Source: a virus. From it: DNA of 30,550 bases. The notes under the pieces were generated by a model that made no database searches, was not told where the DNA came from, and worked only from the letters and a program-made list of their open reading frames with translations. The translations under genes and the position numbers were made by a program. Below are positions 928-26,076 of the stretch, piece by piece (the first letter of the stretch is position 1; each line of letters opens with the position of its first letter). Where the stretch lies: IMG/VR virus record IMGVR_UViG_3300035016_000024, positions 1 to 30,550 of that record; one strand, 5' to 3'.

Positions 928-3096
928 TCACCCCCGGACCGTGTCGTAGGCCGCGCCGCCACGGCGAATGGCGTCGAGCGTCATCGCCGAGGACTGGCGG
1001 GCAATCTGCCCGGCCAGCAGCCGCAGCCGCGCCTCGACGCTGGCGTCAGCGCCACGCGCGTCGATGGCGATGCTGGTGTGGATCGTGGTGCTGCCGGGCG
1101 CGGTGCCGTTCGGCAGCACCGTCCCCGACTGGCGGGGGACGAACCACTCCGGCCCGCGCTCGCCGACTACGTAGGGTTTTCCTGAGTCGACCGGCCCGCC
1201 CTCGGCCCGGAACAGCCCCCCGAGCCAAGAGCCCATGCCGCTGAACATGCTGTCGAGCGAGAAGCCGGACAGGGCGGAGGAGACCGCATTGCCGAGCGGC
1301 TCGGTGATGGTACGGCGGGCGATCACGCGGGCGATGTCCTGCAGCAGGCCCTGCATGACCTTCGACAGCTTCTCGCCGCGCACGATCGCGTCCTCGAAGG
1401 CGCTGGAGAAGGTGAGCCCGAGCTCGCGCACCGTCTCCGAGGTTCGCTCGGCGCCCTCCGCGATCCGCCGCTCGGTCCGCTCCAGGTCCTCCATCGCGCG
1501 CTCGGCCTCGCGCTGGACCGTGGCGTCGGGCAGCGGCCGGCCGATCCGCTCCGAGCGCTGGACCAGGTCGGAGAGCCGCTCCAGCCGGCGCCCGTAGCGC
1601 TCATAGGCGGTCTCGTTGTCGGCGATCAGCCGCTCGCGCTCGCGGAGGATCTCGTTGACCTCGCGCTCGGCCTCGCGCGCCTCCCGGGCGCCGTCGTTGC
1701 TCGCGCGCCGGACCGCAGCAACGCGGGGTTCCAGGCGACGCAGCGCCTCGTCGCGCTCGTGCAGGGCGAGCGTCTCAAGCCGGGTGCGCTCGGCGGCGGT
1801 GACGCCGCCGGCCGCCTCGGCCTCGCGCAGCCGGCGCAGGCGCTCCTGGTATTCGCGCTCGATGCGGAAGCGGTCGTCGAGGTCCTTCGTGAGATCGAGC
1901 ACGTCCTGCGCCGTGCGGCGGCGGCGAGCATCTGCGGCCTGCTGGCCGGCGCGCTCCCCCTCCTCGATGCGGCGCGCTGTCGCGGCGCGCTCGGCGGCGT
2001 CCACCTCGGCCAGCAGGTCGAAGTACCGCTGCCGCAGCTCGTCGAGGCGCTGCCCCGGATCCACCCCGGCCTGCTGCTGCGCGGCCCCAACCAGGCCCGC
2101 ACGGATCGTGCCGCGACGGGGCTGGGCGCGCAGGCTCGGGCGGCCGTCATTCTCTGCCTCCAGCCGGGCGATCTGGTCGGCCAGCGCCTGCAGCTGCCGC
2201 CGCTGCTCGGCCAGCCGTTCGGTGTCGGCGAGCAGGCCGGCACCCTGCCGCACACCGTCGAGCGCGCGTGCGGCGCCGGACAGCGCGCGGGCCAGCGTGT
2301 TCGACAGGCCGATGGCGCGGTCGAGCTGGCCGAGGAAATTCTCGGTGGCCGCGCTCAGCTGGCCGAAGGCGCGGCCGAGCGAAAGCGGGGCCTTGTCGAG
2401 CTCCGCGCCGAGCCGCTCGGTGGCGCGCAGCAGGGCGGGGAACACCCGCTCGGCGGTGAGCTTGCCCTCGGAGCCGAGCTTGCGCAGCTCGCCGATCGAG
2501 ACGCCGAGCTCGCGCGCCAGGCCCTCGGCCAGCAGCGGCATGGCCTCGAGGATGGAGCGGAGCTCGTCGCCCTGCAGCACGCCCGAGGCCAGCGCCTGCG
2601 CAAGCTGCAGGGTGGCGCTGCCGACCTCGGCGTTGGACGCGCCGGAAACGACGGCGACGCGCTGCAGGCCGGCCACCAGCCGGGCCACCTGATCCGAGGT
2701 GGCGCCGATCGCGCGCGCGGCGATCGAGAACCGCTGGAAGGCGTCGACGCTCTCGGAGACCGCGACGCCGGTGGACAGCGCGCTGCGATACAGCGCCTCG
2801 TAGACAGCCCCCGCCCGCTCGACCGAGCCGGTGGCGGTCTGCAGGCGCGAGAGGCTCTGTGTGAGCGCATCGCCGGCCTGGACCAGCGCCCGTGCGGCCA
2901 CTGCCGCGCCGGCGAGCTGGATGCCGCGCGTGGCCACGTCCAGCAGTTCCAGCGAGCGGGATGCGCGCTCGGCACCGCCCTTGATCTGGTCGAGTGAGCG
3001 CTGGCCGGTCTCGCCGACCTCGCGCAGCCCGGCCTTGACCCGAGCGGCGTCGTCCAGCGAGAGGCGCACCGAGACGCGGCGGGTGGCGTCGGCCAT
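928..3096 (-). CDS. Phage tail tape measure protein
   Basis: This 722-residue protein sets tail length and is threaded through the tail tube before DNA ejection. Residues about 60-260 match the tape-measure N-terminal domain (ALVQAGDALTQSLSRLQTAT, then SVDAFQRFSIAARAIGAT and LAQALASGVLQGDELRSIL). Residues about 280-560 are Arg/Glu/Ala-rich and predicted helical coiled coil. The C-terminus (about 560-722) resembles the lambda-type tape-measure C-terminal domain, with LTFSSAFEDAIVRGEKLSKV and the Gly-rich RAEGGPVDSGKPYVVGERGP segment. It begins one base after the stop of the chaperone extension frame. The length is modest for the family, implying a fairly short siphovirus tail. Confidence 0.93.
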   Translation of the reverse strand: MADATRRVSVRLSLDDAARVKAGLREVGETGQRSLDQIKGGAERASRSLELLDVATRGIQLAGAAVAARALVQAGDALTQSLSRLQTATGSVERAGAVYEALYRSALSTGVAVSESVDAFQRFSIAARAIGATSDQVARLVAGLQRVAVVSGASNAEVGSATLQLAQALASGVLQGDELRSILEAMPLLAEGLARELGVSIGELRKLGSEGKLTAERVFPALLRATERLGAELDKAPLSLGRAFGQLSAATENFLGQLDRAIGLSNTLARALSGAARALDGVRQGAGLLADTERLAEQRRQLQALADQIARLEAENDGRPSLRAQPRRGTIRAGLVGAAQQQAGVDPGQRLDELRQRYFDLLAEVDAAERAATARRIEEGERAGQQAADARRRRTAQDVLDLTKDLDDRFRIEREYQERLRRLREAEAAGGVTAAERTRLETLALHERDEALRRLEPRVAAVRRASNDGAREAREAEREVNEILRERERLIADNETAYERYGRRLERLSDLVQRSERIGRPLPDATVQREAERAMEDLERTERRIAEGAERTSETVRELGLTFSSAFEDAIVRGEKLSKVMQGLLQDIARVIARRTITEPLGNAVSSALSGFSLDSMFSGMGSWLGGLFRAEGGPVDSGKPYVVGERGPEWFVPRQSGTVLPNGTAPGSTTIHTSIAIDARGADASVEARLRLLAGQIARQSSAMTLDAIRRGGAAYDTVRG

Positions 3097-3097
3097 C

Positions 3098-3418
3098 TCA
3101 GGTGGTCTCCCCCTCGCGGCGGGCGGCCGCGCCCTCGGCCATGCCGGCGCGGATGGCGAGCAGCAGCTCGGCAGCGGCCCAGCCCGCGGCGCCGAGCTCG
3201 CGTGCCGTGGCGAGCGCGCCGGCGGTGTCGAGGGTCAGGCCGGCCATGGTCGCCTCGGCGCAGGCCGTGACCGCAGCCCAGCAGGCGTGGCCCTCGATGC
3301 TGGTCGGGGCGTGTGCGGCGTAGGGGCAGGCCTTGGCGCAATCGCGGCCGAGGGCGGCGCAGCCGCGGCAGTATTCGGGCCCGCGGCCGAAGTGCCAGGC
3401 GGCGCGGGCCCTCAGCCG
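3098..3418 (-). CDS. Tail assembly chaperone, -1 frame extension (T part of a G/GT pair)
   Basis: This frame is open from the slippery site at 3418-3424 down to a stop immediately before the tape measure. It has no ATG, GTG or TTG near its beginning. The only independent start would be CTG at 3415, overlapping the previous TGA. It encodes about 106 residues, with CRGCAALGRDCAKACPYAAH (cysteines at roughly 17, 20, 27 and 31) followed by an Ala/Glu helix. Gene order (tube, chaperone, out-of-frame extension, tape measure) and the lack of a start match the lambda G/GT arrangement. I read it as made only as a fusion, about 230 residues with the upstream frame. The Cys cluster might bind a metal. 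Initiation at CTG is the alternative. Confidence 0.75.
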   Translation of the reverse strand, partial: RLRARAAWHFGRGPEYCRGCAALGRDCAKACPYAAHAPTSIEGHACWAAVTACAEATMAGLTLDTAGALATARELGAAGWAAAELLLAIRAGMAEGAAARREGETT

Positions 3419-3789
3419 TTTCCCTCGGCGGCCACCGCCGCGACCGGCGCCGTGGCGCGGTCCCAGAACGCGGCGGCGATGTCGTCGAGGTCCATCAGGC
3501 GCTCGACCGCCTCGGGCGAGAGCGGCAGCGGCTTGCCGGCAGCGTCGCCGACGCCCTCCCAGGCCGTCACGGCGTGCCGGGCGAGCGCCTTGACAAGGAA
3601 GGCAAAGGACAGGCCGCGCGACATGTCGGGGTCGAGCTCCGGGTCGGCGATGCGGATCGCGGCCAGCCGGCGCGCGGCGGCGGCCTGGGCGGCGGCCATG
3701 ACCGCAGTCGTGACCGGGCGGATCTCCACGCGCACGCCGCGCGGCAGGTCGAGCCAGTAAGGTTCGATGGGGATGTCGAGGGTGAGCAT
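3412..3789 (-). CDS. Phage tail assembly chaperone (G-like)
   Basis: This 125-residue protein precedes the tape measure and probably chaperones it during tail assembly. I start it at the ATG at 3789 because GGAG (3796-3799) lies six bases upstream. A second in-frame ATG at 3801 lacks a clear ribosome binding site. The protein opens with MLTLDIPIEPYWLDLPRGV (beta), followed by helices (VMAAAQAAAARRLAA, FLVKALARHAVTAW) and an acidic LSPEAVERLMDLDDIAAAFW segment. It ends EGNG at a TGA, with the slippery heptamer three codons before the stop. Its natural upstream neighbour, the tail tube gene, is separated from it by the 2.7-kb kinase insertion. Confidence 0.8.
   Translation of the reverse strand: MLTLDIPIEPYWLDLPRGVRVEIRPVTTAVMAAAQAAAARRLAAIRIADPELDPDMSRGLSFAFLVKALARHAVTAWEGVGDAAGKPLPLSPEAVERLMDLDDIAAAFWDRATAPVAAVAAEGNG
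3418..3424 (-). other. Programmed -1 frameshift site, G GGA AAC
   Basis: On the minus strand the chaperone frame reads GAG GGA AAC GGC TGA, so the heptamer G GGA AAC sits in the XXXYYYZ phase needed for -1 slippage. It is one base from the lambda G-T site (G GGA AAG). Slipping leads into CGG CTG AGG and the otherwise start-less extension frame. I see no obvious pseudoknot just downstream, although the following sequence is very GC-rich. Confidence 0.82.
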
Positions 3790-4025
3790 GCCGGTCTCCA
3801 TGGCTTGCGGATGCAGATTGCCGGTCGGACCGTGTCCATTCCGGCGAAGCGGCGCCCCTGCGACCCGATCCGCTCAGCGCCATCGAGCGACCGTCTCGCC
3901 GACAGACTATTCCTGAGTCTCGGTCCGCCGTCCGTGTCGGCGATCCGGCCGCCCGCATCCAGCCGGAGGCGGCATGCCACGCTCAGACGTTGAGGATCTG
4001 CCGAGCGATTTCTCTCGCATGTTGC

Positions 4026-4048
4026 GCAACCGTTGGGCGTTCGGTTGC
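4026..4048. repeat. Inverted repeat upstream of the kinase gene
   Basis: Perfect 7-bp arms, GCAACCG and CGGTTGC, are separated by a 9-base spacer. The left arm overlaps a TTGCGCAA palindrome at 4022-4029. It lies in the 335-bp gene-free stretch (3790-4124) before the HWE kinase and overlaps the candidate -35 box. It could be an operator or a hairpin in a leader. Nothing else gene-like is visible in that stretch. Confidence 0.4.
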
Positions 4049-4073
4049 ACCTTCGCGCGGGCGGACCGAATAT
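4045..4073 (+). promoter_or_regulatory. Candidate promoter for the HWE kinase gene
   Basis: TTGCAC (4045-4050) and GAATAT (4068-4073) are spaced by 17 bases, about 50 bases upstream of the kinase ATG. AGGG at 4112-4115 supplies a ribosome binding site nine bases from that ATG. The -10 match is only moderate. A dedicated promoter would be needed because the gene opposes the surrounding late operon. Confidence 0.35.
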
Positions 4074-4124
4074 CTACGAGATGCATCGCAAACCGCGACG
4101 GACGCACCCGCAGGGAACACACCG

Positions 4125-6320
4125 ATGAATCCCTCACGGCCCGAGCCGACGACGGGCTCGGCCGCAGTCATCCCTTCCGGCGCCGAAGCGCGGGCCCCGG
4201 CCGGCGGTCTGCCGCGCCGGCCTGGCCTACGGGCACATCTGCTCGTGCTCGTCCTGGCCGTGCTGCTGCCCTCGCTCGCCTTCGGCGCTGGGGTCGCCTG
4301 GCATCTGGTCGAGAACTACCGTCGTGCCTTCGAGGAGCGCCTGACCGACACGGCGCGCGCGCTCGGCTTGGCCGTCGACAACGAGATCGAGACGCACTTC
4401 GCGGTCCTGACCGCGCTCGCCGCCTCACCCACGCTGGACGGCTGCGGCGGGGGCGCCACCGAAGATGGCGCCTGCGACCTCGGCGCCTTCGACGCCCACG
4501 CCCGGCGTGCCGCGGAGGCCCTCGGCACCGAGGTGATCCTGATCGGCCCCGACCTCCGCCAAGCCGTCAATACCAGCCTGCCCCGCGGCGTGCCGCTGCC
4601 CGTGACCGGCGCCGCCGAGGCCGCCCGCCGGGTGCTGGAGAGCGGAAAGCCGGAGGTCATCGATCTGGTGGTCGGGGCGGTGGCGCGACGGCCCGTCGCG
4701 GCCGTGCTCGCGCCCGTCCTGCGCGAGGGCCGCCGGGTCGGCGTGCTCGCGACGCGCCTCGATCCCGACCGCCTGCGCGGCATCCTGGCGGCGCAGACGA
4801 GCCGCAACGGAGAGGCGGGCGGCGGTATCTTCGCGATGCTCCTGGACGGGCGAACGACCGTGGCGGCCCGCTCGCGCGGCCATGACGACCTGGCAGGCCG
4901 GCCAGCCCCCGACTGGTACGCCCAGGCGGTCGCCGGACGCGGACGCGGTCTGGCGCACGGCCCCACGCTCGACGCCGGTGACGCCCTGGTCGCGTTTCAG
5001 AGGCTTTCCCGGGCGCCCGGCTGGACGCTGGTGGTCGCCGAGCCACTCGCCGCCTACCGCGCAAGCTGGCGCGGCCCCTTGCTGGGCCTCGCCGCCGGGG
5101 GCGCCGCTGCACTCGCGCTCGGACTCGCACTCGCGGTGGCGCTCGCGCGGCGCACGCTGCGGCCGGTGGCGGCGCTGGTGCGCCACGCGAAGGCCGTGGC
5201 CGCGGGCGCTGGCCGGGGGCCGGAAGCGCCGCCGGCCGTCGCCCCTGCCGACGTGGCCGAGTTCGAGGCGCTGCGGGTCGCGATCGAGGACGCCGAGGCG
5301 GCGCTGCGCGAGGGCGAGGACCGGCTGCGCCGGGCGCAGGAGGCGGGCGGCGTCGGTGCCTGGGAGTGGGACATCGCCTCGGGCCGGGTCCACTGGTCGG
5401 ACGGCTACTACCAGATCTGGGGCATCGACCCGGCCGAGCCGGCCTCCTACGAGGGCTTCCTGCGCCACGTCCTGCCCGAGGACCGGCCCGCCCTGGAGGC
5501 GGCGCTAGCCGAGGTGCTGCGCACCGGAGGACGCTGGCGGCACGAGTTCCGCATCCGCCGCCCGTCGGACGGCGCGCTCCGCTGGCTGGCGGGAGAGGGC
5601 GAGGTGGAGCGGGACGCCGCCACGGGACGGCCGATCCGGATGGCCGGCGTGAACCGCGATGTCACCGAACGGCGCCAGGGCGAGGAGCACCGGGCGCTCC
5701 TGATGCGCGAGCTCGTCCACCGCACCAAGAACATGCTGAACGTCGTCCAGGCTGCCGTCCGGCTGACGCCGAGAGACGATCCGGAGGCGTACGCCCGGGC
5801 GGTGGAGGGCCGGGTAGCGGCACTGGCGCGCGCGCACATCCTGCTGGCCGAAACGCGCTGGTCCGGTGCCGAGCTTCGGCCGCTCGCCGAGGCGGAGCTG
5901 GCCCCGTTCCTGCACGGCCCGCCCCCGGCGACCGGCGCCCCGCCGGTGGCCGAACTCGAGGGGCCACCGGTGGTGCTGGCGCCGGAGGCCGCGCAGGCGC
6001 TCTCGATGGCGCTGCACGAGCTGGCGACGAACGCGACCAAGCACGGAGCGCTGTCGGCACCGGGCGGGCGCGTCTCGGTGTCCTGGGGGGTGGACGCCGC
6101 CGCGGGGCTGCTGCGGCTTCGCTGGGTCGAGCGCGGCGGCCCTGTGCCGGCCGGGCCGCCGGCGCGGCGGGGCTTCGGGTCGCGCGTGGTCGAGGCGACG
6201 GTGCGCGACCAGCTCGGGGGCGCGGTGGAACGGCGGTGGGAGGCGCCCGGCCTGGTCTGCGAGCTCACCGCGCCGCTCGAGCGCGTGCTGGCGGGCGGGG
6301 CCGCACGCGCCGCGGCGTAG
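4125..6320 (+). CDS. Membrane-bound PAS-HWE sensor histidine kinase
   Basis: This 731-residue kinase starts at the ATG at 4125, behind AGGG (4112-4115). The frame is open further upstream, but that part has no kinase-like content. Order: cytoplasmic N-terminus, TM1 (about 37-60), a periplasmic Cache-like sensor region (about 60-315), TM2 (about 317-341), a HAMP-like linker, a PAS domain (about 403-515, with GAWEWDIASGRVHWSDGYY) and an HWE kinase module. Visible motifs are phospho-accepting H532 in ELVHRTKNMLNVVQA, the HWE-class N-box HELATNATKHG (H631, N636) and the diagnostic W-x-E (W667, E669). It opposes the phage late genes and sits between tail tube and tail chaperone. No receiver is adjacent; the nearest one is at 13.5 kb. 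The ligand is unknown. Confidence 0.93.
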   Translation: MNPSRPEPTTGSAAVIPSGAEARAPAGGLPRRPGLRAHLLVLVLAVLLPSLAFGAGVAWHLVENYRRAFEERLTDTARALGLAVDNEIETHFAVLTALAASPTLDGCGGGATEDGACDLGAFDAHARRAAEALGTEVILIGPDLRQAVNTSLPRGVPLPVTGAAEAARRVLESGKPEVIDLVVGAVARRPVAAVLAPVLREGRRVGVLATRLDPDRLRGILAAQTSRNGEAGGGIFAMLLDGRTTVAARSRGHDDLAGRPAPDWYAQAVAGRGRGLAHGPTLDAGDALVAFQRLSRAPGWTLVVAEPLAAYRASWRGPLLGLAAGGAAALALGLALAVALARRTLRPVAALVRHAKAVAAGAGRGPEAPPAVAPADVAEFEALRVAIEDAEAALREGEDRLRRAQEAGGVGAWEWDIASGRVHWSDGYYQIWGIDPAEPASYEGFLRHVLPEDRPALEAALAEVLRTGGRWRHEFRIRRPSDGALRWLAGEGEVERDAATGRPIRMAGVNRDVTERRQGEEHRALLMRELVHRTKNMLNVVQAAVRLTPRDDPEAYARAVEGRVAALARAHILLAETRWSGAELRPLAEAELAPFLHGPPPATGAPPVAELEGPPVVLAPEAAQALSMALHELATNATKHGALSAPGGRVSVSWGVDAAAGLLRLRWVERGGPVPAGPPARRGFGSRVVEATVRDQLGGAVERRWEAPGLVCELTAPLERVLAGGAARAAA

Positions 6321-6462
6321 GGGCTGAGGCCGCAGGTCCCTGGGTCCATCGTGCCACGGCGAGGGCGAGCCACCGTTCGTCCGTCCGGGTCGGCCTGCGG
6401 AACCACGCCGCGCCCAACGCCCGCTCCACGCCTGCCGAGGTGGCGCGGTCCGCCCGCTGGGC

Positions 6463-7419
6463 TCACGCATACTCCGTTCCTGCCTGCTGGTTCTTCAGCA
6501 CCGCGGTCATCATGCGCGTCGCAGTGGCGTTGTAGGCGGCACGGAACTCGAAGCTCGCCTCGACGCCAGCCGGCCCCTCGATCGGCGTCTTGGCAAGCGC
6601 CAGGTAGACCTCGTGCAGCGTGAAGGTGAGGCTGCGGTTCGCGTCGATGGTGAACGCGAAGGCGAACTCTGCCGCGGTGCCGTTCCCCGCCTGCGTCAGC
6701 AGCGTGGTGTCGGCGAAGCGGGCGGTGATCTGGCCGGTGGCGCGTGCGATGCCGGGATCCGCGCCCTCGATCTTGCGGTCGGCGCGGATGGTGCGCACCG
6801 CCTCGACGCTGTTCGAGTAGGCGAGCCGCGCGTCGGTGACCTGGGCCAGCGCCGCCCCGCCGCGGGTGATCGAGCCCTGTGCCTTGTGGAAGGCGGTGTA
6901 GGCGGCCGTCGTCGGCGTGCCGCCGGAGGACGAGCCGGAGCGGGCCGAGCCCTGGGCGATCAGCTTGATGGTGGCCGTGGCCGGCCCGGTCGGACTGAAG
7001 TCGATCTCCAGCGCATCCGCACGGACGCCGGTGCAGACGTCGTGGCTCGGCACGTCCGGATAGCCGATCTCGATCGCCTGGGAGGGCAGCGTCGCCGCGC
7101 CCGAGCCGAAGGTGTGGGTGTAGTTCGGAACCGTGCCGGTGGTGGTCGGCGCGCCGAGCAGCAGGCGCAGCCAGTGGCCGATGTTGATCAGGTCCACCGG
7201 CACGACCACCTCGCCCTCTACGGTGACGGTGTCAAGGAAGGGTGCAGCGGGATCGCGGTTGCCGCCGAGGCCGATGACGTCGGCGTCCAGCAGCGGCTGC
7301 TCGGCGCCCAGATTGCAGGAGAGGAAGGGCACGCGACGCCAGTTGCCGCCCGGTGCGGTGCCGTAGGTGACCTCGGGGATCATGAGCAGGCGCGAATTCG
7401 CGCCGATGGCACGAGGCAT
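6463..7419 (-). CDS. Major tail tube protein
   Basis: This 318-residue protein is predicted to polymerise into the tail tube. It begins MPRAIGANSRLLMIPEVTYG, the typical opening of siphovirus tube proteins. It continues with repeated beta segments (VTVEGEVVVPVDLINIGHWL, ALEIDFSPTGPATATIKLIA). The second half resembles the first in composition (ITRGGAALAQVTDARLAYSN), as expected for duplicated tube folds. It ends in a Thr/Ala-rich strand segment (VEASFEFRAAYNATATRMM). It lies directly downstream of the tail terminator, with a GGAG-like site upstream. It would normally be followed by the tail chaperone, but the HWE kinase gene intervenes. Confidence 0.88.
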   Translation of the reverse strand: MPRAIGANSRLLMIPEVTYGTAPGGNWRRVPFLSCNLGAEQPLLDADVIGLGGNRDPAAPFLDTVTVEGEVVVPVDLINIGHWLRLLLGAPTTTGTVPNYTHTFGSGAATLPSQAIEIGYPDVPSHDVCTGVRADALEIDFSPTGPATATIKLIAQGSARSGSSSGGTPTTAAYTAFHKAQGSITRGGAALAQVTDARLAYSNSVEAVRTIRADRKIEGADPGIARATGQITARFADTTLLTQAGNGTAAEFAFAFTIDANRSLTFTLHEVYLALAKTPIEGPAGVEASFEFRAAYNATATRMMTAVLKNQQAGTEYA

Positions 7420-10179: not shown

Positions 10180-12210
10180 TCAGGTGCCCGGGTTGAACCA
10201 GGCGCCGCGCCAGTCGATGGCGCCGACGCCGAAGTCGAAGATCACGCTGACCTCGACGCCGTCGACGCCCGAGACGGGGCCGGTGGTGACCTGCGGCCCC
10301 TCCGCCCCGTTCAGGTAGCCGTAGACGTAGACCGGCGTGGTCGGCGGCTCGGCGAAGAGATACCAGCGGTTCGCCGGGATCAGCGGCTCCACCACCGGCT
10401 GCAGCAGCCCGACATAGGGGTTCACCGCGCCCGAGCTGCCCGGCGTGATGGCGGCGGTGAGCTTGAGCGCCGGGAGCTCGAGCGCCGCGCCCACCAGCAC
10501 GCGCATGCTGCGGCCGAGCGAGATCGGCAGGCCGTCGAGCGTGCGCTGCTTCATGATCGCCTCGCGGCCTTTGGCGATGTTCGCCTCGTCGAGCGCGGTG
10601 CCGGCCGCCGCCTTGTTCGCCCGCGCTGCCGCCGTCGCAAAGACCGGTGCGGCGCCGGTGGTGAGCGTCGGGCCGTCGCCGTTGGCCAGGTTCAGCAAGG
10701 CATAGGCGGTGGCGTTCTCGAAGTCGGCCACGCGCCGGCCGATCATGGCGGCGAAGTCGGTGAAGGCGCCGAGGTCGTCGTTCACCAGCATCTGCCGCGT
10801 CACCCGGATCCGGCGGGCGAAGGTCTGCAGCAGGACGATCTCCTGGCTCTCGGACATGGTGCCGGCCTGGATCTCGCCGTTCTCCAGCAGCGGCTGCAGG
10901 ACGGGGAAGTCGCCGATGCGCAGATGCCGGTGCGGCTTGAAGTCGCGGAAGTCGCGCCGGAGGAAGAGCTGGCGGAAGGTCGGCGCGGCCGGCTGGTAGG
11001 CGGCGAGCAGCATCTTGTTGGCCGCGGCCGAGAGCAGCGCCGGGAAGTCGGAGGTGGTGTGAAAGGCGCGCTCGGCCAGGCGCACCGGATCGCGCGGGAC
11101 GTGGGTCTCACCGTGCAGGGTCAGCAGCTCGCGGACCATGTCGGAGGGCCGCCAGCCCATGAACTCGGCGTGGCGGCCATTCCCGGCCGGCTGGTAGCCC
11201 GGCATGGCGCGGGCCGCGATCGCCTCGGCCATGGCGTCGAGGATCTCGGTCCGTGGGGGCGCGCCATGCGCGGCGGGGTTGGCCGGCACGGAGGGTCGGG
11301 GCGCGTGGCGCACCAGGGCGTCGAACAGGGCGCGGCGGGTGTCGTCGGGGGACCAGCCGCGCTCGACGGCCTCGGCGCGCAGGGCGGCGACACGGTCGGC
11401 CGGCAGGAGGGCGCGGGCGGCCTCGACGGCGGTGTCGATACCGGCGATGCGGCCCCGCTCGGCACGGGTGGCCTCAGCGGCGGGATCGGGCTGGGGGCTG
11501 GCCGGCGCGGCGGGCGCGGGCTCGGGCGTGGTGGTCACGGTGGTCTCCTGGGGCGGGGTGGCGGGCGGCGCAGGCGGCTCCGGCGTCGTCTCGGGCATGG
11601 GCGGGTCCTCGTGCGGCAGGGCGGGTTCGATGGCGGGCGTGGGGGCGCCCTGGTCCCCCTGCGCGCGAACAGCGGCGTCGCGGTCCACCGGCAGCGGCAC
11701 GACGGAGATCTCGAAGGGCTCCCAATCCACCGCGCGGTGGACGGTGGTGCCAGTGGCGGGGTCAGGCCGCGGCTCATAACGATGCACCCGGTAGCCGACG
11801 CTGACGGCGCGCAGTGTGCCGTCGGCGATGCGCTGCCAGACCGGCTCGACGTCGGCCGCGCTGCTGAACTGCAGCGTCGCGTAGCCGCGGCCTCGCTCGA
11901 TGCGGGCAGCGGTGACGCGGCCGAGCACGTCGCGGGCATCCATGCTGCGATGGGTGTTCAGCACTGGGGCGTTGCCCGAGCGCAGCGCGTCCATGCGCAC
12001 CGCGTTCGGCGACATCTCCAGTTCCTCGGTGATCAGGCCGAGGGCGGGCACGAAGTTGCGGGCGCGCGCGCCGGTGGACCACACCACCTCGACGGTGCGC
12101 GCGGCGCGATCGACGGTGGCGGGAGCGGTAGTTGCGCGATGCGCGACAATCGGCACAACAGCGGACGCCGGCGCGGGGTTGGCCCCGCCCGGGTCGTTCA
12201 AGCATTCCAT
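10180..12210 (-). CDS. HK97-type prohead protease fused to major capsid protein
   Basis: This 676-residue fusion starts at the ATG at 12210, with AGGA eight bases upstream. Residues about 30-185 are an S78 prohead protease: H87 in NAPVLNTHRSMDARDVLGRV and S137 in RAVSVGYRV are the expected catalytic His and Ser. Residues about 186-245 form a Pro/Thr-rich linker. Residues about 250-330 are a charged helical, scaffold-like stretch. The remainder is a capsid domain (DFPALLSAAANKMLLAAYQP, FRQLFLRRDFRDFKPHRHLR, GWRYL-like segment NRWYLFAEPPTTPVYVYGYL). Protease, scaffold and capsid are usually separate genes in HK97-like phages, though fusions are known. An internal ATG at 11598 with its own GAGGA site could yield a protease-free form of 472 residues. 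Confidence 0.88.
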   Translation of the reverse strand: MECLNDPGGANPAPASAVVPIVAHRATTAPATVDRAARTVEVVWSTGARARNFVPALGLITEELEMSPNAVRMDALRSGNAPVLNTHRSMDARDVLGRVTAARIERGRGYATLQFSSAADVEPVWQRIADGTLRAVSVGYRVHRYEPRPDPATGTTVHRAVDWEPFEISVVPLPVDRDAAVRAQGDQGAPTPAIEPALPHEDPPMPETTPEPPAPPATPPQETTVTTTPEPAPAAPASPQPDPAAEATRAERGRIAGIDTAVEAARALLPADRVAALRAEAVERGWSPDDTRRALFDALVRHAPRPSVPANPAAHGAPPRTEILDAMAEAIAARAMPGYQPAGNGRHAEFMGWRPSDMVRELLTLHGETHVPRDPVRLAERAFHTTSDFPALLSAAANKMLLAAYQPAAPTFRQLFLRRDFRDFKPHRHLRIGDFPVLQPLLENGEIQAGTMSESQEIVLLQTFARRIRVTRQMLVNDDLGAFTDFAAMIGRRVADFENATAYALLNLANGDGPTLTTGAAPVFATAAARANKAAAGTALDEANIAKGREAIMKQRTLDGLPISLGRSMRVLVGAALELPALKLTAAITPGSSGAVNPYVGLLQPVVEPLIPANRWYLFAEPPTTPVYVYGYLNGAEGPQVTTGPVSGVDGVEVSVIFDFGVGAIDWRGAWFNPGT

Positions 12211-12265: not shown

Positions 12266-13354
12266 CTAGGGCGCGCCGTTCGCTGCCGGGAACCGCATGG
12301 TCCACGCTGCCCCGCGGCCCGCATCAGGCGTCGTGGCCTCGGGCCGTCCAGTCGTCGTCTCAAGCCGACCGCCCAGCTGGGCAGCCAGGGCACGAGCGAG
12401 GCGCGTCCCGAGCCCGGTGCCTTTCGGCGGCGCCCCGGGGTCGATCCCCACGCCGTCGTCCTCGACCGACAACTCGAACTCGGCGCCATTGCGATGGAAG
12501 CCGATCGCGACGGATCCGGCGCGGTCGTCAGGAAAGGCATACTTCAGGGAGTTCGCGACCAGCTCGTTGACGATGAGGCCGAGCGCGATCGCGCGGCCGA
12601 CCGGCAGTTGGTGCGACTCGGCTTTCACCCGAAGCGCGATGGGTCGCAGGCCGATGGCCACCTCCCTGAGATCCTCGCCCAGGCCCTCCAGAAAGGCGCG
12701 GCTGTCGAGCGAGGCGTCGGTGTGCCAATGCTGCTCAAGACGACCGTTCACGCGGGCGAGCGCCTGGATCCGGGCCGCCGCCTCGCCGAGCGCCTCGCGC
12801 GCCGAGACGTCGTCCTTCGCGGCCGCGATCTGCAGATGCAGCGTCGCCGCGAGCCGCTGGAGGTCGTTGCGCCCTCGGTGGATCGCCTCGCGGAGCAGCG
12901 TTTCCTTCTCGGCATCACTTGATGCGAGCCTCTCGTTGGCCTCCGCAAGCGCGGCAGCGTCCGCCGCGATGCGCTCGCGCGACCTCGCGACCGTGGCGAA
13001 GGCGACGTGCAGCGCCTCCATAAGGAAAGCGATGAACAGCGTGATCGCAAGATAGATGGCCGCGCCGATCACATCGAACGGGTTGTCGAACCCCAGACGC
13101 CCAAGCGGGGGCACAAACAGCCAGACCGCGAGAGCACTCGAGAGGATCGCGGCATATACGCCCGTTCCCCGATCGAACAGGACACCCGTGATCACCACGA
13201 CGGGGAAGAACAGGAGGAACGGGTAGCCAGGGTTCCACCCGAAGATGAGCACACGTAGAGCCACTGCCAACACGACGAGGGCCGTTGTCGCCAAGTAGCG
13301 TGCCCAGGCGGGAAAGCCACGTGTGGTGGCGGTGTAGGCGAAGAGGCGCTCCAT
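12266..13354 (-). CDS. DUF4118/HisKA_2-type sensor histidine kinase
   Basis: This 362-residue kinase begins at the ATG at 13354. The N-terminus has about four membrane segments (residues about 18-38, 45-60, 65-83 and 94-118) of the DUF4118/KdpD-like type, with almost no periplasmic sensor domain. A coiled-coil linker (about 122-155) leads to the dimerisation helix LLREAIHRGRNDLQRLAA, with candidate phospho-acceptor H159. The ATPase domain has N-box NELVANSLKYAF (N263-F274), G1 DDGVGI (about 299-304) and G2 GTGLG (312-316). It is transcribed away from a single-domain receiver gene 173 bases off. The pair is wedged between the portal and capsid genes. The stop is 55 bases upstream of the capsid fusion ATG. 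The signal sensed is unknown. Confidence 0.92.
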   Translation of the reverse strand: MERLFAYTATTRGFPAWARYLATTALVVLAVALRVLIFGWNPGYPFLLFFPVVVITGVLFDRGTGVYAAILSSALAVWLFVPPLGRLGFDNPFDVIGAAIYLAITLFIAFLMEALHVAFATVARSRERIAADAAALAEANERLASSDAEKETLLREAIHRGRNDLQRLAATLHLQIAAAKDDVSAREALGEAAARIQALARVNGRLEQHWHTDASLDSRAFLEGLGEDLREVAIGLRPIALRVKAESHQLPVGRAIALGLIVNELVANSLKYAFPDDRAGSVAIGFHRNGAEFELSVEDDGVGIDPGAPPKGTGLGTRLARALAAQLGGRLETTTGRPEATTPDAGRGAAWTMRFPAANGAP

Positions 13355-13526: not shown

Positions 13527-13997
13527 ATGCGGGTGCTGCTGGCGGAAGACGAAGGGATCATCGCGCTGCTCCCCCAGGATGTTCTGGAGGCGGCGGGCCA
13601 TACCGTGGTCGCGGCATCGGATGGCCAAGCCGCGGTCGAGCTTGCCGCCCGCGACGGTCCGTTCGACGCGCTGGTGACCGATCTCAACATGCCCCGGCTT
13701 GAGGGAGGTGAGGTCATCCGTCGTCTCCGGGCGGAGACGCCATCGCTGCCTGTCGTGGTTCTGACCGGCAGTCCACCTCGGGAAGGCGTCTCGGTTCTGG
13801 CGCGCGCTGGAGAGCCGCCGGTGGTGCTGCTTCTCAAGCCGGTCGCCCCTGAAGACCTGCTGCGCGGGCTCGACCGCGCCGTCGCTGCTACAGCGATGGA
13901 GGCGATCTCAGAGCAGCCGAACCCACCGGGAGAGAGGCAGGCTGGTGGACTTCAGCACGCCACGCCATCGGCGAGCCCGGCACCGGGGCCGATCTGA
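13527..13997 (+). CDS. Single-domain response regulator (CheY-like)
   Basis: This 156-residue protein consists of one receiver domain plus a Pro/Ser-rich tail (about 125-156) with no output domain. I choose the ATG at 13527 because the receiver fold starts there (MRVLLAEDEG) and a purine-rich GGAAGCGGAA precedes it. The key residues are present: acidic D8/E9, phospho-acceptor D52 in LVTDLNMPRLEG, T80 in VVVLTG, and K104 in LLLKPV. It is divergent from the adjacent membrane kinase, the obvious phosphodonor. Without an output domain it probably acts as a phosphate shuttle or sink, or by binding a protein partner. It points into the end of the portal operon. Confidence 0.9.
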   Translation: MRVLLAEDEGIIALLPQDVLEAAGHTVVAASDGQAAVELAARDGPFDALVTDLNMPRLEGGEVIRRLRAETPSLPVVVLTGSPPREGVSVLARAGEPPVVLLLKPVAPEDLLRGLDRAVAATAMEAISEQPNPPGERQAGGLQHATPSASPAPGPI

Positions 13998-14015: not shown

Positions 14016-14108
14016 TCAGCTTCGACCTGCTGAGGCTTCACGGCACTCCTTCTGTACGCTCGTGATGCCGAGCACGTACTCGGCCAGGCTGTAGCCGCCG
14101 ACCGTCAT
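14016..14108 (-). CDS. Short ORF coupled to the original portal stop
   Basis: An ATG at 14108 overlaps the TGA that would end an unshifted portal frame (ATGA) and encodes about 30 residues, beginning MTVGGYSLAEYVLGITSVQK. It stops at 14016, next to the end of the convergent response regulator gene. The coupled start suggests a genuine phage gene. It may be intact and tiny, or the first codons of a longer gene cut by the kinase/receiver insertion. I do not recognise it. Confidence 0.4.
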   Translation of the reverse strand: MTVGGYSLAEYVLGITSVQKECREASAGRS

Positions 14109-15603
14109 GCCTGTGCTGCGGAGACGTCGGAACGCGGGGGCGCCGCGGCGCCGGTGGCCGCGATCTCGATGGCGGCGAGCTGCGCCGCGTCCTGCGCAGC
14201 GCCAGATTTCGCGACGCGACGCGGCGCGGATCGGTGTCGAGCGAGATGCCGGCCTCGTCGAGGAGGGCGTTGGCCTCGCGGATCATCTCCACCGCGGCGC
14301 GGAAGTCGTAGCCGAAGGCGCCGACCGCCTCGGGCTGCGGCACGAAGCCGGCGCGCACCTGGGCGATCAGGGCGGTGGTGTCCTTCAGCGGGTCGATCAT
14401 CTCGTGCGCCGGTGGGACGTGGCTGACGCCGTCCGGCATGCCCGCTCCCCACAAGCCGAGCAGCGCGCCCTGCTGGTGGAAGCGGTCCGCGATCGGGCGG
14501 ACGAGCATGGGGATGAGCATGCCGTATTGGACCTGCTCGCAGAGGCGGCGGAACTCGATCTTGCCGGCGCGGAGCGAGGAGTAGTTCGCCTGCGTGAGGT
14601 CGCCGGAGACCTGGTCATAGGTGAGGCCCGCACCGACCGCGGCGGCCTCGAGAGCGCGGCGAGCGAAGGCGGCGTGCGACCCGCCGCCCGAGGGGTTCAC
14701 CACCTCCACGCTGCCCATTCCGCGGCGGTAGAGGATCATCCCCGGCTCGAAGCTCTCGACCGTGCGGCCCTGGGCGTCCCGCAGCAGGCCAGAGGCGGGG
14801 CCGGTCATGGCCTCGACGCCCTCCTCCGTCACCACCGCGGCGAGGCAGGCCTCGATCTTCGCCTTCATCAGCAGCGCGGCCTCGTAATCACTGAGATCGC
14901 GCAGCCGCAGCAGCACCGGCGCCAGCCAGGAGACGTCACGCAGCTGACCAGGGCGGCGCTTGCGATAGATGTGCAGCACGTCGCCGGCTGGGATGCGCTC
15001 GCTGCTGAGCCAGGAGGCACCCGGCACAGTCCAGGCGGCGCCCGGATGCACGCGATGCAGCCAGTAGCCGATCGGTTCGCCGGCCGCGCCGAGGGCGATG
15101 CCCTGGATGGTGGCGGCACCCGCCACCATGCCGTTGCGGGCGGTGTCGAGGTGATCGCTCTCCAGCACCTGCAGCCGAAGGCCGATCGGATTGGCGGACG
15201 ACGGCGGTACCATCAGGAAGCGGACGAAGCACTCGCCGCTCTCGACAACGGTGCGCATGACCAGCGCCTGCAGGCCATAGAGATCGAGCCGTCCCTCGGC
15301 GTCGCAGCCGGTGCCTTCGGCCCAGCGATGCCAGGCACGGCTGTGCGCCGCATCGGGCCAGCGCGTGGTGATGCCGGCGCCGACCGCGTTGCCGGTCCAG
15401 AGATCGACGATGCGGCTGGCATAGGGGTCGTTGCGCACGGCGTCGCGGGCGCGGCGCGCCACTGTCGGCGCGGCCATACCGACCTCGGCCGTGGCGCTGC
15501 CGCCGGACGGCGCCCAGGCGGAGGCGCGTCCGTCCTGTGCCGCGGCATAGCCACGCAGGGCGTGCCAGGCGTCACGGACGCGGCGGGTCATGCGCTCGAT
15601 CAC
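14038..15603 (-). CDS. Phage portal protein, lambda type, with frameshifted C-terminus
   Basis: The portal forms the dodecameric gate through which DNA is packaged. The start is GTG at 15603, overlapping the gpW-like stop (GTGA). The frame reads 521 residues. The first ~463 match lambda-family portals: ARDAVRNDPYASRIVDLWTG, GECFVRFLMVP, LQVLESDHLDT, AGDVLHIYRKRRPGQLRDVS and YDQVSGDLTQANYSSLRAG. After ISLDTDPRRVA the sequence turns into an Arg/Pro-rich tail. At 14211-14220 GTCGC is tandemly duplicated. With one copy removed the frame continues VAKSGAAQDAAQLAAIEIAA to a TGA at 14105, giving 497 residues. The present tail is therefore probably a mutation product. The core is intact, so function may persist. 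Confidence 0.9.
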   Translation of the reverse strand: MIERMTRRVRDAWHALRGYAAAQDGRASAWAPSGGSATAEVGMAAPTVARRARDAVRNDPYASRIVDLWTGNAVGAGITTRWPDAAHSRAWHRWAEGTGCDAEGRLDLYGLQALVMRTVVESGECFVRFLMVPPSSANPIGLRLQVLESDHLDTARNGMVAGAATIQGIALGAAGEPIGYWLHRVHPGAAWTVPGASWLSSERIPAGDVLHIYRKRRPGQLRDVSWLAPVLLRLRDLSDYEAALLMKAKIEACLAAVVTEEGVEAMTGPASGLLRDAQGRTVESFEPGMILYRRGMGSVEVVNPSGGGSHAAFARRALEAAAVGAGLTYDQVSGDLTQANYSSLRAGKIEFRRLCEQVQYGMLIPMLVRPIADRFHQQGALLGLWGAGMPDGVSHVPPAHEMIDPLKDTTALIAQVRAGFVPQPEAVGAFGYDFRAAVEMIREANALLDEAGISLDTDPRRVASRNLALRRTRRSSPPSRSRPPAPRRPRVPTSPQHRHDGRRLQPGRVRARHHERTEGVP

Positions 15604-19958: not shown

Positions 19959-21239
19959 CTAACCTGACCTGCCGGCGCCGCCGCCCGCACCACGGGTGGC
20001 GGCGACATCATCGAACACCCGGTCCTCGCCCGCCAGCACCGCAGCCCGGCCGGTGAAGGCCTGCCAGCGCCGCACCGCCACGTCGACGTAGGGCGCGTCG
20101 ATGTCCATCGCGTAGCAGACGCGCCCGGTGGTCTCCGCGGCGATGATGGTGCTGCCGCTGCCGCAGAACGGCTCGTAGACCGCATCGCTTGGGGCGCTGT
20201 TGTTCAGCATCGGCCGGCGCATGCACTCCACCGGCTTCTGCGTGCCGTGGACCGTGGCGGCGTCCTCGTCTCCGCCCGTGCTGATCGGCCAGAGCGTCGC
20301 CTGGTCGCGCGCGCCCTGCCAATGGCCGGTCGCACCCTTGCGCACGCCATAGAGGCAAGGCTCGTGCTGCCAGTGATAATCGCCGCGCCCCAGCACGAAG
20401 CGCGACTTCGCCCAGACGATCTGGCTGCGCACGGCGAAGCCGCAGGCTTCCAGGCTCTCGATCACGGTGCGGGCGTGCACGCCCGCGTGCCAGACATACG
20501 CCACGTCGCCCGGGAACAGCGCCCAGGCCTGACGCCAATCGGCGCGGTCATCGTTCGCAACCTTTCCGGTGCGCATCGTGGCGGAGACGCCCGCCTCGTT
20601 CCGCCACTCGGGATCGTAGTTCACCCCGTAGGGCGGATCGGTCGTCATCAGGTGCGGCCGCCCACCATCCAGCAGTCGGGCGACGTCCGCCGCGCTGGTG
20701 GCGTCGCCGCAGAGCAGTCGGTGCGGGCCGAGCAGCCACAGATCGCCAGGGCGCGTGACGGGCGCCTCCGGTGGCTCCGGCGCTGGCGCGTCCGGATCGC
20801 CGCTGGCCGCTGCCGGCCCGTCCGGCGCCACCTCGTCCAGCAGGCGATCGAGCATCGCGCCGTCGAAGCCGATCAGCCCGAGGTCGAACTCGTCGGTGCG
20901 CAGCGCGCGCAACTCGGCCGCCAGCAGGCTCTCGTCCCAGGTGGAGTTCAGCGCCAGCTGGTTGTCGGCCAGCCGGAAGGCACGCGCCTGCGCCTCCGTC
21001 AGATGCCCGAGCCGGATGGCGGGGACTTCCTCCAGCCCGAGCGCCTTCGCGGCGAGGACGCGGCCATGGCCGGCGATCAGCACGCCGGCATCATCCACCA
21101 GCACCGGCACGTTGAAGCCGAACTCGCCGATCGAGGCGGCCAGCTGCGCCACCTGCTCGGTGGGATGCAGCCGCGCGTTCGCCGCGTAGGGCGCGAGCGA
21201 CGCTACTGGCATCATCTCGACGCGAAGGTCAGGCAGCAT
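19959..21239 (-). CDS. ParB-N domain / DNA methyltransferase fusion (first copy)
   Basis: This 426-residue protein has a ParB/Srx-like domain (residues about 8-135; LIAGHGRVLAAKALGLEEVP with the GHGR signature at 57-60) joined to a class-beta-order DNA methyltransferase. Catalytic motif IV is DPPYG (201-205), the SAM-binding motif FCGSGST is at 358-364, and HGTQKPVECMRRPML supplies the conserved Q-K-P. DPPY suggests an N6-adenine or N4-cytosine product. The ATG at 21239 overlaps the stop of the preceding paralogue by 11 bases. No restriction gene is nearby, so it is likely an orphan phage methylase for anti-restriction or regulation. The target site cannot be read from sequence. Confidence 0.92.
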   Translation of the reverse strand: MLPDLRVEMMPVASLAPYAANARLHPTEQVAQLAASIGEFGFNVPVLVDDAGVLIAGHGRVLAAKALGLEEVPAIRLGHLTEAQARAFRLADNQLALNSTWDESLLAAELRALRTDEFDLGLIGFDGAMLDRLLDEVAPDGPAAASGDPDAPAPEPPEAPVTRPGDLWLLGPHRLLCGDATSAADVARLLDGGRPHLMTTDPPYGVNYDPEWRNEAGVSATMRTGKVANDDRADWRQAWALFPGDVAYVWHAGVHARTVIESLEACGFAVRSQIVWAKSRFVLGRGDYHWQHEPCLYGVRKGATGHWQGARDQATLWPISTGGDEDAATVHGTQKPVECMRRPMLNNSAPSDAVYEPFCGSGSTIIAAETTGRVCYAMDIDAPYVDVAVRRWQAFTGRAAVLAGEDRVFDDVAATRGAGGGAGRSG

Positions 21240-22695
21240 CGGTCATGGCCTCCGCGCGCGCCGCAGCGATGGTATCGTAATCGCGGCCATCGTCCGCCAG
21301 CGTCACCGGCAGCTCGGGATGCAGCATCCGCCAGCGGGCCACGGCCAGGTCGACATAGGCCGGCGCCAGTTCGATGGCGCGGACGCGGCGCCCCGTGCGC
21401 TGGCCGGCCAGGATCGTCGTGCCGGATCCGCCGAAGGGCTCGAACACGATGTCACCTTCGTCCGTGTAGGCGCGCATCAGGAACTCCGGCAGCGCGACGG
21501 GGAACACCGCCGGGTGCTCGGTCTCGATGCCCCGCCCCTTGTGGCGGGTGATGCGCAGCACACTGTCGGGGATCCGCATCTCCTGCACCGGCAGGCCGAT
21601 ATGGGTGTAGGCCTTCACCTCGCCGTCCGCGGCGCGGAGCCCGCTGCCCTTGTTCGGCGTGCCCGCCCATTTGCACGGCACGATTTTGTTCGCCTGCCGC
21701 GACTGGCGATTGAAATGGAAGACGAACTCGAAGGCCGGCGCGAGCCGGCCATTCCAGTCGCCGGGCAGGCCGGGCCCCTGATCCCAAGCATACAGCCCGA
21801 AGCGGCGCCACCCCTGTGCGCGCATCCAGTCGAGCCAGCCCTGCCAATACGGCTGCCATTCCCGTTCGCGGTGGATCAGCCCGAGGTTCACCAGCACCTG
21901 CGCGTCACGCCGCAGCGCGCCTTCGAGATGCTGGAACACGCCCTGCATCAGCGCGTCCCAATCGGTGCCGCCGCCAGTCGTGTAGTCGCGCTGGTTCCCG
22001 TAGGGCGGGCTGGTGAACAACATTGCCGCGCGATCGGCGGCCATGACACGGGCGACCGTGGAGCGGTTGGTGCTGTCGCCGCAGGCGAGCCGGTGCTCGC
22101 CCAGCAGCCAAATGTCGCCCACGCGCGCGACGGCCTGGCGCGGCGGCTCCGGCTCGGCGTCTGCGGGATCCTTGGCCGGCTCGGCGCCGTCCGTGACCGG
22201 CTGGTTGCCAGGAGCCAGATCCGCGCCGCTGGCAACGGCCGGCGTCGGCAGGTTGCCGGCCTCGGTTTCCAGCCCGGCCAGCAACCGCTCGATCTCCGCA
22301 CCGTCGAAGCCCGTGAGCGCCAGGTCGATCCCGCCGACCTCCTGCAGCTTCGCGACCTCGGCGGCGAGCAGCGCCTCGTCCCAGCCGGCGTTGAGCGCGG
22401 TGCAATTGTCGGCCAGCCGATACGCCGCCTTCTGCGCGTCGGAGAGGCCGGCGCGGACGATGGTCGGCACCGTGTCGAGGCCAAGCGACTTTGCGGCCAG
22501 CAGCCGGCCGTGTCCGGCGATGATCTCGCCGCGTTCGTCCACCAGCACTGGCGCAACGAAGCCGAACTCAAGGATGCTGCTCGCGATCTGCGCCACCTGC
22601 TCGGCAGAATGCGTGCGCGCGTTCCCAGCATAGGGCAGCAGCGCGGCAACCGCGCGCGCCTCGACGGCGCTCGCAGCCCAGAGGGACTCAGGCAT
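21229..22695 (-). CDS. ParB-N domain / DNA methyltransferase fusion (second copy)
   Basis: This 488-residue paralogue of the next gene begins at the ATG at 22695 (GTG at 22701 is possible; AGG lies just before the ATG). The ParB-like domain (about 10-140) carries EIIAGHGRLLAAKSLGLDTV, with GHGR at 61-64. A Pro/Ala linker follows (about 145-190), then the methyltransferase with motif IV TSPPYGNQRDY (228-238) and SAM motif FGGSGTT (421-427). SPPY, unlike the DPPY of its neighbour, is more typical of N4-cytosine enzymes, so the pair may modify different bases. A central insertion (about 280-350) is absent from the first copy. It is divergent from the cupin gene. Confidence 0.92.
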   Translation of the reverse strand: MPESLWAASAVEARAVAALLPYAGNARTHSAEQVAQIASSILEFGFVAPVLVDERGEIIAGHGRLLAAKSLGLDTVPTIVRAGLSDAQKAAYRLADNCTALNAGWDEALLAAEVAKLQEVGGIDLALTGFDGAEIERLLAGLETEAGNLPTPAVASGADLAPGNQPVTDGAEPAKDPADAEPEPPRQAVARVGDIWLLGEHRLACGDSTNRSTVARVMAADRAAMLFTSPPYGNQRDYTTGGGTDWDALMQGVFQHLEGALRRDAQVLVNLGLIHREREWQPYWQGWLDWMRAQGWRRFGLYAWDQGPGLPGDWNGRLAPAFEFVFHFNRQSRQANKIVPCKWAGTPNKGSGLRAADGEVKAYTHIGLPVQEMRIPDSVLRITRHKGRGIETEHPAVFPVALPEFLMRAYTDEGDIVFEPFGGSGTTILAGQRTGRRVRAIELAPAYVDLAVARWRMLHPELPVTLADDGRDYDTIAAARAEAMTDAA

Positions 22696-22851
22696 CTGCA
22701 CCTACGTGATGGTGGAATGGGGGGTGCCGCGGCTGGCAGATGCAATCTGCGGAGGGCGGGGGGCCGCGTCTCGAAGGAAAGGTTTGCTTGTCAGCCCAGG
22801 AACACGTGTAAGCTTCCTGCAACAAGCCTAACCAGGATGGAAGAGACGACT

Positions 22852-25101: not shown

Positions 25102-26076
25102 TCAGCCCGGACGTGCGCCGGTGCGCTGCAGAATCGGGATCCACTTCTCGGCCTCGGCGCGGACGAAGCGGCGCGCCTCCGTGGTGTCGCCCGGCATCGG
25201 ATCAACGCCTCGCTCTGTAAAGCTTTGTTGCACGGCGGGATCGGCAAGCACCTTCAGCACCGCCGCCGACAGGGTGGCGATGATGGCCTCCGGCGTGCGG
25301 GCCGGCGCGTAGAGGGCCTGGAAGGACGAGGCGCGATAGCCCGCGATCCCGACCTCCTCCAGCGTCGGGAGGTCGGGCAACATGCGCGACCGCCGCGTCG
25401 TGGTGACGGCCAGCGCGCGCGCCTTGCCCTCCCGCACAAAGGGGGCGAGCAGCGTCTGGCTGTCGATCATCATGTCCACACGTCCGGCGATGAAGTCCGT
25501 CACCGCCGCTGGCGTGCCGCGGTACGTCACCACCGTGAAGTCCACATTCGCCAGGCTCTTCAGGAGCTCGCCGGCCAGGTGCGATGCGGCGCCCACGCCG
25601 GTGGTGGCAAAGGTCGCCTCCCCGTTGCGGCTGCGCAGCCAGGTGAGCAGCGAGGGCATGTCGTTGGCTGGCACCGAAGGATGGACGCAGACGAGGAAGC
25701 TCTGATCCCCGACCAGGGCCACCGGCGTCAGGTCGGCAACGCTGTCGAAGCCGACGTCGGGATAGAGGGCTGGGATCACCGGATGCGCTGCACCGTTCAG
25801 CAGCAGCGTGTGCCCGTCCGGGGCGGCGCGCGCCACGACACGCGCCCCGATGGTGGAGCCCGCGCCTGGCAGGTTCTCGATCACGACGGTTTGGCCGAGC
25901 TCGCGCCCCAATGGCTCCGCGATGAGCCGGGCCACGACGTCGATAATGCCGCCCGCAGCGAAGGGTACCACGATGCGCACAGGGCGGTCTGGGTAACGCG
26001 TCTGCGCGCGCGTCGTCGTGGCCGCAAAGGGGAGCGCACCGGCGGCGGTGAGCATTGCGCGGCGTGTTGTCATCAT
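25102..26076 (-). CDS. Bug/TctC family tripartite tricarboxylate transporter receptor
   Basis: This 324-residue periplasmic solute receptor carries a Tat signal (TTRRAMLTAAGALPFAATTT; R5-R6, cleavage near residue 24-26). The mature protein begins with the family hallmark YPDRPVRIVVPFAAGGIIDV. It continues with NLPGAGSTIGARVVARAAPD, LAGELLKSLANVDFTVVTYR and the C-terminal ILQRTGARPG. Such proteins deliver carboxylates or other small acids to TctAB-type permeases, none of which is encoded here. Bug receptors are hugely expanded in Burkholderiales and Acetobacteraceae chromosomes but are not phage genes. It starts at ATGATG (26076) with a strong GGAGGGA site. Ligand unknown. Confidence 0.93.
   Translation of the reverse strand: MMTTRRAMLTAAGALPFAATTTRAQTRYPDRPVRIVVPFAAGGIIDVVARLIAEPLGRELGQTVVIENLPGAGSTIGARVVARAAPDGHTLLLNGAAHPVIPALYPDVGFDSVADLTPVALVGDQSFLVCVHPSVPANDMPSLLTWLRSRNGEATFATTGVGAASHLAGELLKSLANVDFTVVTYRGTPAAVTDFIAGRVDMMIDSQTLLAPFVREGKARALAVTTTRRSRMLPDLPTLEEVGIAGYRASSFQALYAPARTPEAIIATLSAAVLKVLADPAVQQSFTERGVDPMPGDTTEARRFVRAEAEKWIPILQRTGARPG

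Follow-up and report, generated by a model that had tools for sequence, protein, structure and literature searches.

Burkholderia prophages carry differing morons at one location, with toxin-antitoxin, metabolic and regulatory genes as cargo, and several morons of phi1026b are expressed independently of the neighbouring phage genes (PMC2920897). The P2/P4 anti-phage hotspots are small loci of ∼1–5 kb that adjoin the cos site (Rousset et al. 2022, PMC9122126). The locus considered here, a slot between the genes for the tail tube and the tail assembly chaperone, resembles the Burkholderia hotspots and the Tab moron of Pseudomonas JBD26 (PMC10884400) in having extra genes between conserved phage genes, with cargo that varies at one location and includes toxin-antitoxin, metabolic and regulatory genes. 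Like the P2/P4 hotspots, it has a pair of conserved phage genes between which gene content changes readily, and defence genes are among the cargo. It differs from the moron hotspots in being a single slot exactly at the tube-chaperone junction, 96% filled, with ≤7 kb of mostly antisense cargo; it also holds full membrane sensor kinases, with no clear contrast in base composition with the phage. Unlike the P2/P4 hotspots, it is not beside cos but interrupts a late operon of structural genes, and a large part of what it carries is non-defence (metal resistance, transport, two-component signalling). In the consulted sections, neither the Burkholderia morons nor the P2/P4 hotspots are placed at the tube-chaperone junction; a search of the open-access literature returned no account of a hotspot at this position or of HWE kinases in phages, which is weak evidence of absence, and the hotspot is apparently undescribed.

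The window, the whole stretch of DNA analysed, is the complete IMG/VR record IMGVR_UViG_3300035016_000024, a virus contig of 30,550 bases. According to Pfam and PHROG profiles, its minus strand encodes a primase, ParB-methyltransferases, the small and large terminase, portal, protease-capsid fusion, head decoration, tail terminator, tail tube, chaperone, tape measure and distal tail proteins. The portal gene is at 14038–15603 (−; Pfam Phage_portal_2, 311 bits), the fused prohead protease and major capsid gene at 10180–12210 (−; phrog_4523, Phage_capsid_4; start set by coding score), and the tape measure gene at 928–3096 (−; Pfam TMP_3, phrog_339). The two genes that anchor the hotspot are the tail tube (6463–7419, −; Pfam PF18906, Phage_tube_2, 176 bits, and phrog_290) and the chaperone (3412–3801, −; phrog_313); judged against relatives, the true start of the latter is probably at 3789 (ATGCTC, with the SD motif GGAG). 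The cargo insert between them (3802–6462) reaches from the region of the chaperone start up to the stop codon of the tail tube, and it differs among relatives.

The insert carries one called gene, an open reading frame of 731 amino acids at 4125–6320 (+) that starts with ATG and has AGGGAA 8–9 nt upstream. Both flanking tail genes are on the minus strand, in keeping with the earlier note, which had described an HWE kinase on the opposite strand inside the tail operon. That note had also called it a complete membrane kinase with a Cache-like sensor, a PAS domain and an HWE core, and Pfam and the predicted helices agree: from Pfam and alignment A1, the order is TM, partial dCache, TM, PAS_3, HWE_HK core and ATPase, with two strong hydrophobic helices near residues 39–57 and 322–340. 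HWE_HK scores 67.1 bits (cut-off 22.8) and PAS_3 60 bits; the HATPase_c_2 and HAMP matches fall below the cut-off. The dCache_1 match is partial and under the curated cut-off, and appeared only on a separate scan of the N-terminus (E 2.7e-8); the same family is matched by 9 of the 12 proteins in the kinase alignment.

The catalytic residues of the kinase are intact in alignment A1, namely H532, HELATN, WxE (W667, E669) and GFGSR; H532, H631-E632...N636 and W667-x-E669 are invariant, the motifs that mark an HWE kinase. The nearest solved structures are those of the Brucella LOV-HK (6ph4/5epv; 156.8 bits over residues 396–720). In both proteins a PAS-family domain feeds an HWE kinase core; LOV-HK is light-activated, as its entry names state, whereas the phage kinase would sense via its membrane dCache and PAS_3 domains. 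The HWE sensor kinases of Acetobacteraceae genomes have the same architecture (TM, dCache, TM, PAS, HWE core) and the same motifs, and the best full-length homologues in host-family genomes reach 51–52% identity (L162, L176). One difference lies in the residue that precedes the phosphoacceptor His, V in the phage kinase vs D in all 11 aligned homologues, which counts against a signalling role, as does the lack of a response regulator gene adjoining that of the kinase. Outside these genomes, the IMG/VR search gave no close viral relatives of the kinase, INPHARED phages matched weakly and in the PAS region only, and plasmid matches were all below 60% identity. The GC content of the kinase region (0.74–0.78) is at the top of the span of the window (0.64–0.78), with no clear separation.

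Regarding the surroundings of the gene, its leader (3802–4124, +) is 323 bp long counted from 3802 and 335 bp from 3790. The earlier note had given it 335 bp and an inverted repeat: the length holds for the second count, while the repeat (3884–3904/3935–3955; 21 nt, 81% complementary) has a folding z of −0.47, which is not meaningful, and the leader as a whole has no significant structure (z −0.24). The candidate promoter proposed there was not recovered either, with no match in a scan that was restricted to sigma-70-like promoters and covers alphaproteobacterial ones poorly. The sole terminator-like site found is inside the kinase gene, on the minus strand. The window insert has no transposase, and among the 25 inverted-repeat pairs listed not one connects its two ends; transposase domains occur in a few other cargoes of the slot.

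The slot was followed through tail tube scans of IMG/VR and GTDB genomes, 80 loci each; the GTDB loci are mostly from Acetobacteraceae of the Roseomonas group, with other labels on a few MAGs. Both anchors were found in 140 of all these loci. Tube and chaperone are more than 500 bp apart in 96% of the 140, and the gap has 100 distinct lengths; for the other four gaps of the tail module, the corresponding values are 0%, 0%, 11% and 3%. The gap measures 587–7134 bp in 135 loci and −9 to 5 bp in the remaining five, where the tube stop overlaps the chaperone start as TAATG (L076, L123, L127) or TGATG (L147), or is a few bases from it (L039). Most filled sites have a GGAG-like ribosome-binding site directly before ATGCTC. 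In blastn, the 140 relatives lose homology to the window near 3801, where the chaperone starts, and near 6459–6463, where the tube gene stops. The slot is bounded by the tail tube stop codon and the ribosome binding site of the chaperone. In two isolated phages whose hosts are other bacteria, Rhodobacter phage RcKvothe and Synechococcus phage Sc-Yong805-1, the gene that follows the tube gene likewise adjoins it. Hence the kinase is inserted, as expected of a moron, between genes that are adjacent in the five empty relatives and in these two phages, and the splitting of a normally adjacent pair, claimed by the earlier note, is borne out. The comparison of related tail modules with and without the kinase, which that note had proposed together with the mapping of the insertion ends, yielded both empty and differently filled sites, and placed the ends at the chaperone start and tube stop.

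The inserts, that of the window included, fall into 83 clusters unrelated at the nucleotide level. Among pairs of loci whose tail tubes are at least 90% identical in DNA, the cargo is different in 1214 and the same in 68, with near-duplicates in both counts; the turnover of unrelated genes between two conserved anchors is high, as in a diversity hotspot. In cultured genomes that have several prophages, the insert differs from one prophage to the next; those of F. tokyonensis, for instance, measure 1606, 2235, 3087, 4243 and 5521 bp. As for orientation, 47 of the distinct cargoes are all antisense, 15 all sense and 17 mixed. At the level of sequence, then, the position and orientation of the kinase, the turnover of the slot, the intact motifs and the recurrence of kinases described below are established, and the kinase is probably a moron, a signalling cargo expressed by the lysogen and lodged in a hypervariable slot of the late tail operon in a family of temperate siphophages whose hosts are Acetobacteraceae of the Roseomonas group. 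The insertion is in any case one occupant of a cargo hotspot, which goes beyond what the earlier note had described.

The content of the slot was surveyed with a simple codon-score gene caller, which gave 256 cargo ORFs in 153 protein clusters; the assignments that follow are predicted functions from profile matches. ParD- and ParE-like proteins top the list (clusters of 20 and 17 members), and further matches are to PemK, TIR-TPR, caspase, SIR2, STAND, Lamassu LmuB, Septu PtuA, BilD and RmrA, as well as mercury resistance, TauE, TctC, SBP_bac_5/peptide transporters, a TPP enzyme and the RNase PH family. Signalling genes are found elsewhere in the slot too, a response regulator with a kinase in L066 and a hybrid kinase with KaiC in L036/L095. 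This mixture bears on two other readings of the kinase. One is that it belongs to an anti-phage signalling system, for defence or counter-defence, as might be expected beside slot cargo that matches Lamassu LmuB, Septu PtuA, BilD, RmrA and further PADLOC models, or that bears TIR, caspase, SIR2 and STAND domains; however, the 2.66-kb insert has no effector gene beside the kinase, and the kinase has the architecture of host sensors, with which it aligns over nearly its full length, so that this reading appears quite improbable.

The other reading holds that the kinase is an unselected passenger, a member of an abundant host family caught by chance in a slot that tolerates inserts, and of no use to phage or lysogen. 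HWE kinases number 1–27 per genome in 14 host genomes, with a mean of ∼10, and this abundance makes chance capture a serious rival: by our own estimate, taking ∼5000 genes per genome, ∼0.3 such kinases would be expected in ∼150 random cargo proteins. The cargo also includes genes of general transport and metabolism (SBP_bac_5, TctC, TPP enzymes, RNase PH family), as such a slot would allow. Nevertheless, the reading frame and all the aligned catalytic motifs of the kinase are intact, simple tolerance of inserts would hardly lead one to expect a filling of 96%, and the slot often holds toxin-antitoxin and defence-like genes; on balance, a useless passenger seems rather unlikely.

The recurrence of kinases in the slot adds to this comparison. 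In a prophage of the cultured Falsiroseomonas bella CQN31 (G008, L191), on a 323-kb contig, the slot is occupied by a second HWE kinase that has the orientation of the window kinase; the prophage is 87% identical to the window in the capsid, 89% in the chaperone and 80% in the tail tube, and among the kinase homologues fetched, this copy is the only one flanked by the tail genes of the window phage. The protein has 852 residues or fewer; its PAS-HWE half is ∼60% identical to the window kinase, and its N-terminal sensor differs, with a weak match to another Pfam family. F. bella has four prophages with four cargoes, those of L091, L100 and L102 being 1239, 2073 and 1345 bp. Across 50 further phage records from this group, HWE_HK had no match, and two HATPase kinases were found, both in the tube-chaperone slot. 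The F. bella kinase came from a kinase-directed search, which inflates the weight of a second slot kinase in any argument against a passenger. The two phage kinases also stand apart in the tree, as chance capture would have it: of 200 bootstrap trees, 0% unite them as a clade, so that separate captures are likely and a single origin, in view of the starred branches, is less so.

The F. bella prophage bears also on whether the locus is an artefact in which chromosomal and phage contigs were joined during assembly; in favour of this, the window record is a virus contig known as assembled sequence alone. This explanation is hardly credible: the sequences on either side come from a single phage module and keep its usual order, the breakpoints of the window match those in the relatives, and a cultured isolate shows the same arrangement on a long contig. 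Both objections that the earlier note had raised against its own proposal, such a join and the absence of a kinase from the phage context of any other genome, are thus answered by the empty relatives, by the breakpoints shared with the relatives, and by the HWE kinase in the same slot of F. bella.

In the preferred reading, that of a moron with a signalling function, the kinase would be transcribed in the lysogen from its own promoter, antisense to a silent tail operon, and the membrane dCache and PAS domains would gate autophosphorylation at H532. The phosphate may then pass to a single-domain receiver of the phage itself (13527–13997), to a single-domain regulator of the host or to a PhyR-type regulator of general stress in the host, a type that in Alphaproteobacteria is often served by HWE/HisKA_2 kinases. 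The outcome would be a lysogenic conversion of host signalling from which the lysogen benefits.

As for the phage receiver, it is part of a second signalling locus of the same phage, absent from the earlier note and located in the gap between capsid and portal. Here, a second sensor kinase of 362 amino acids (12266–13354, −), with four TM helices and the Pfam domains DUF4118, HisKA_2 and HATPase_c, is divergent from the gene of a CheY-like receiver domain protein of 156 amino acids (13527–13997, +; Pfam Response_reg, 60 bits). The nearest homologues of this kinase are 55–58% identical and come from host-family genomes; in three of six fetched host-family loci (L186, L187, L188), its homologue adjoins one of the receiver (45–50% identical), which makes the two plausibly a cognate pair. 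In these three loci the receiver is downstream of the kinase on the same strand, whereas the window pair is divergent. The capsid-portal gap was considered as an equal second hotspot and rejected, about half of 61 loci being empty; the filled gaps inspected have mostly a sense ORF of ∼450–486 amino acids, and L080, L139 and L154 have other antisense ORFs.

A slot that is filled in almost every member of the family, between two fixed anchor genes, amounts to a catalogue of candidate genes for defence and lysogenic conversion, readable from any genome by locating the tail tube and the chaperone. It also raises the question of how the phage maintains expression of its late tail genes when as much as 7 kb of host-type genes, mostly antisense, lies between them. 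Should the kinases be active, these phages provide their hosts with whole sensory inputs, which is not described in the open-access papers found.

Regarding how cargo is exchanged, local similarity between unrelated inserts (score ≥36) clusters in the first 60 bp of each side, with 14 and 24 pairs, and drops to 0–1 pairs at 180–300 bp inward; L035 and L060, whose cargoes are unrelated, have 50 bp in common at the left end and 58 bp at the right. This clustering fits an exchange by recombination in short flanks, a mechanism that we infer. It is conceivable, if doubtful, that the slot works as a cassette platform, on which prophages, often several per genome, swap cargo by recombination in the ∼60-bp edges; if so, the phages would share a shuffling pool of lysogen functions, including kinases with differing sensor domains. 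Two structured forms of the edges were rejected: hairpin-structured ends, the mean folding z of the edges being about that of the middle, and attC-like inverted-repeat ends, with the left motif in 21 of 140 left edges and no matching reverse-copy pattern on the right. The left motif, near GCtTtGGGCGGaaAGCgG, lies ∼23–34 nt past the tube stop and recurs in unrelated cargoes (for example L035, L044, L090, L104, L139), with no hairpin signal.

Finally, some minor features were observed in the tail modules and in the rest of the window. The gap between chaperone and tape measure holds an extra 1.5–3.1 kb in about 13 of 121 loci (such as L007, L012, L023 and L056); its lengths take few distinct values, and it may be an insertion element. 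The early region of the window has a host-type gene for a TctC tripartite tricarboxylate transporter receptor (25102–26076, −; Pfam TctC, 215 bits), and a TctC-like cluster is also cargo of the tail slot in five other loci. Lastly, two neighbouring genes at 19959–22701 (−) encode ParB-N6/N4 methyltransferase fusions of one family (phrog_498).
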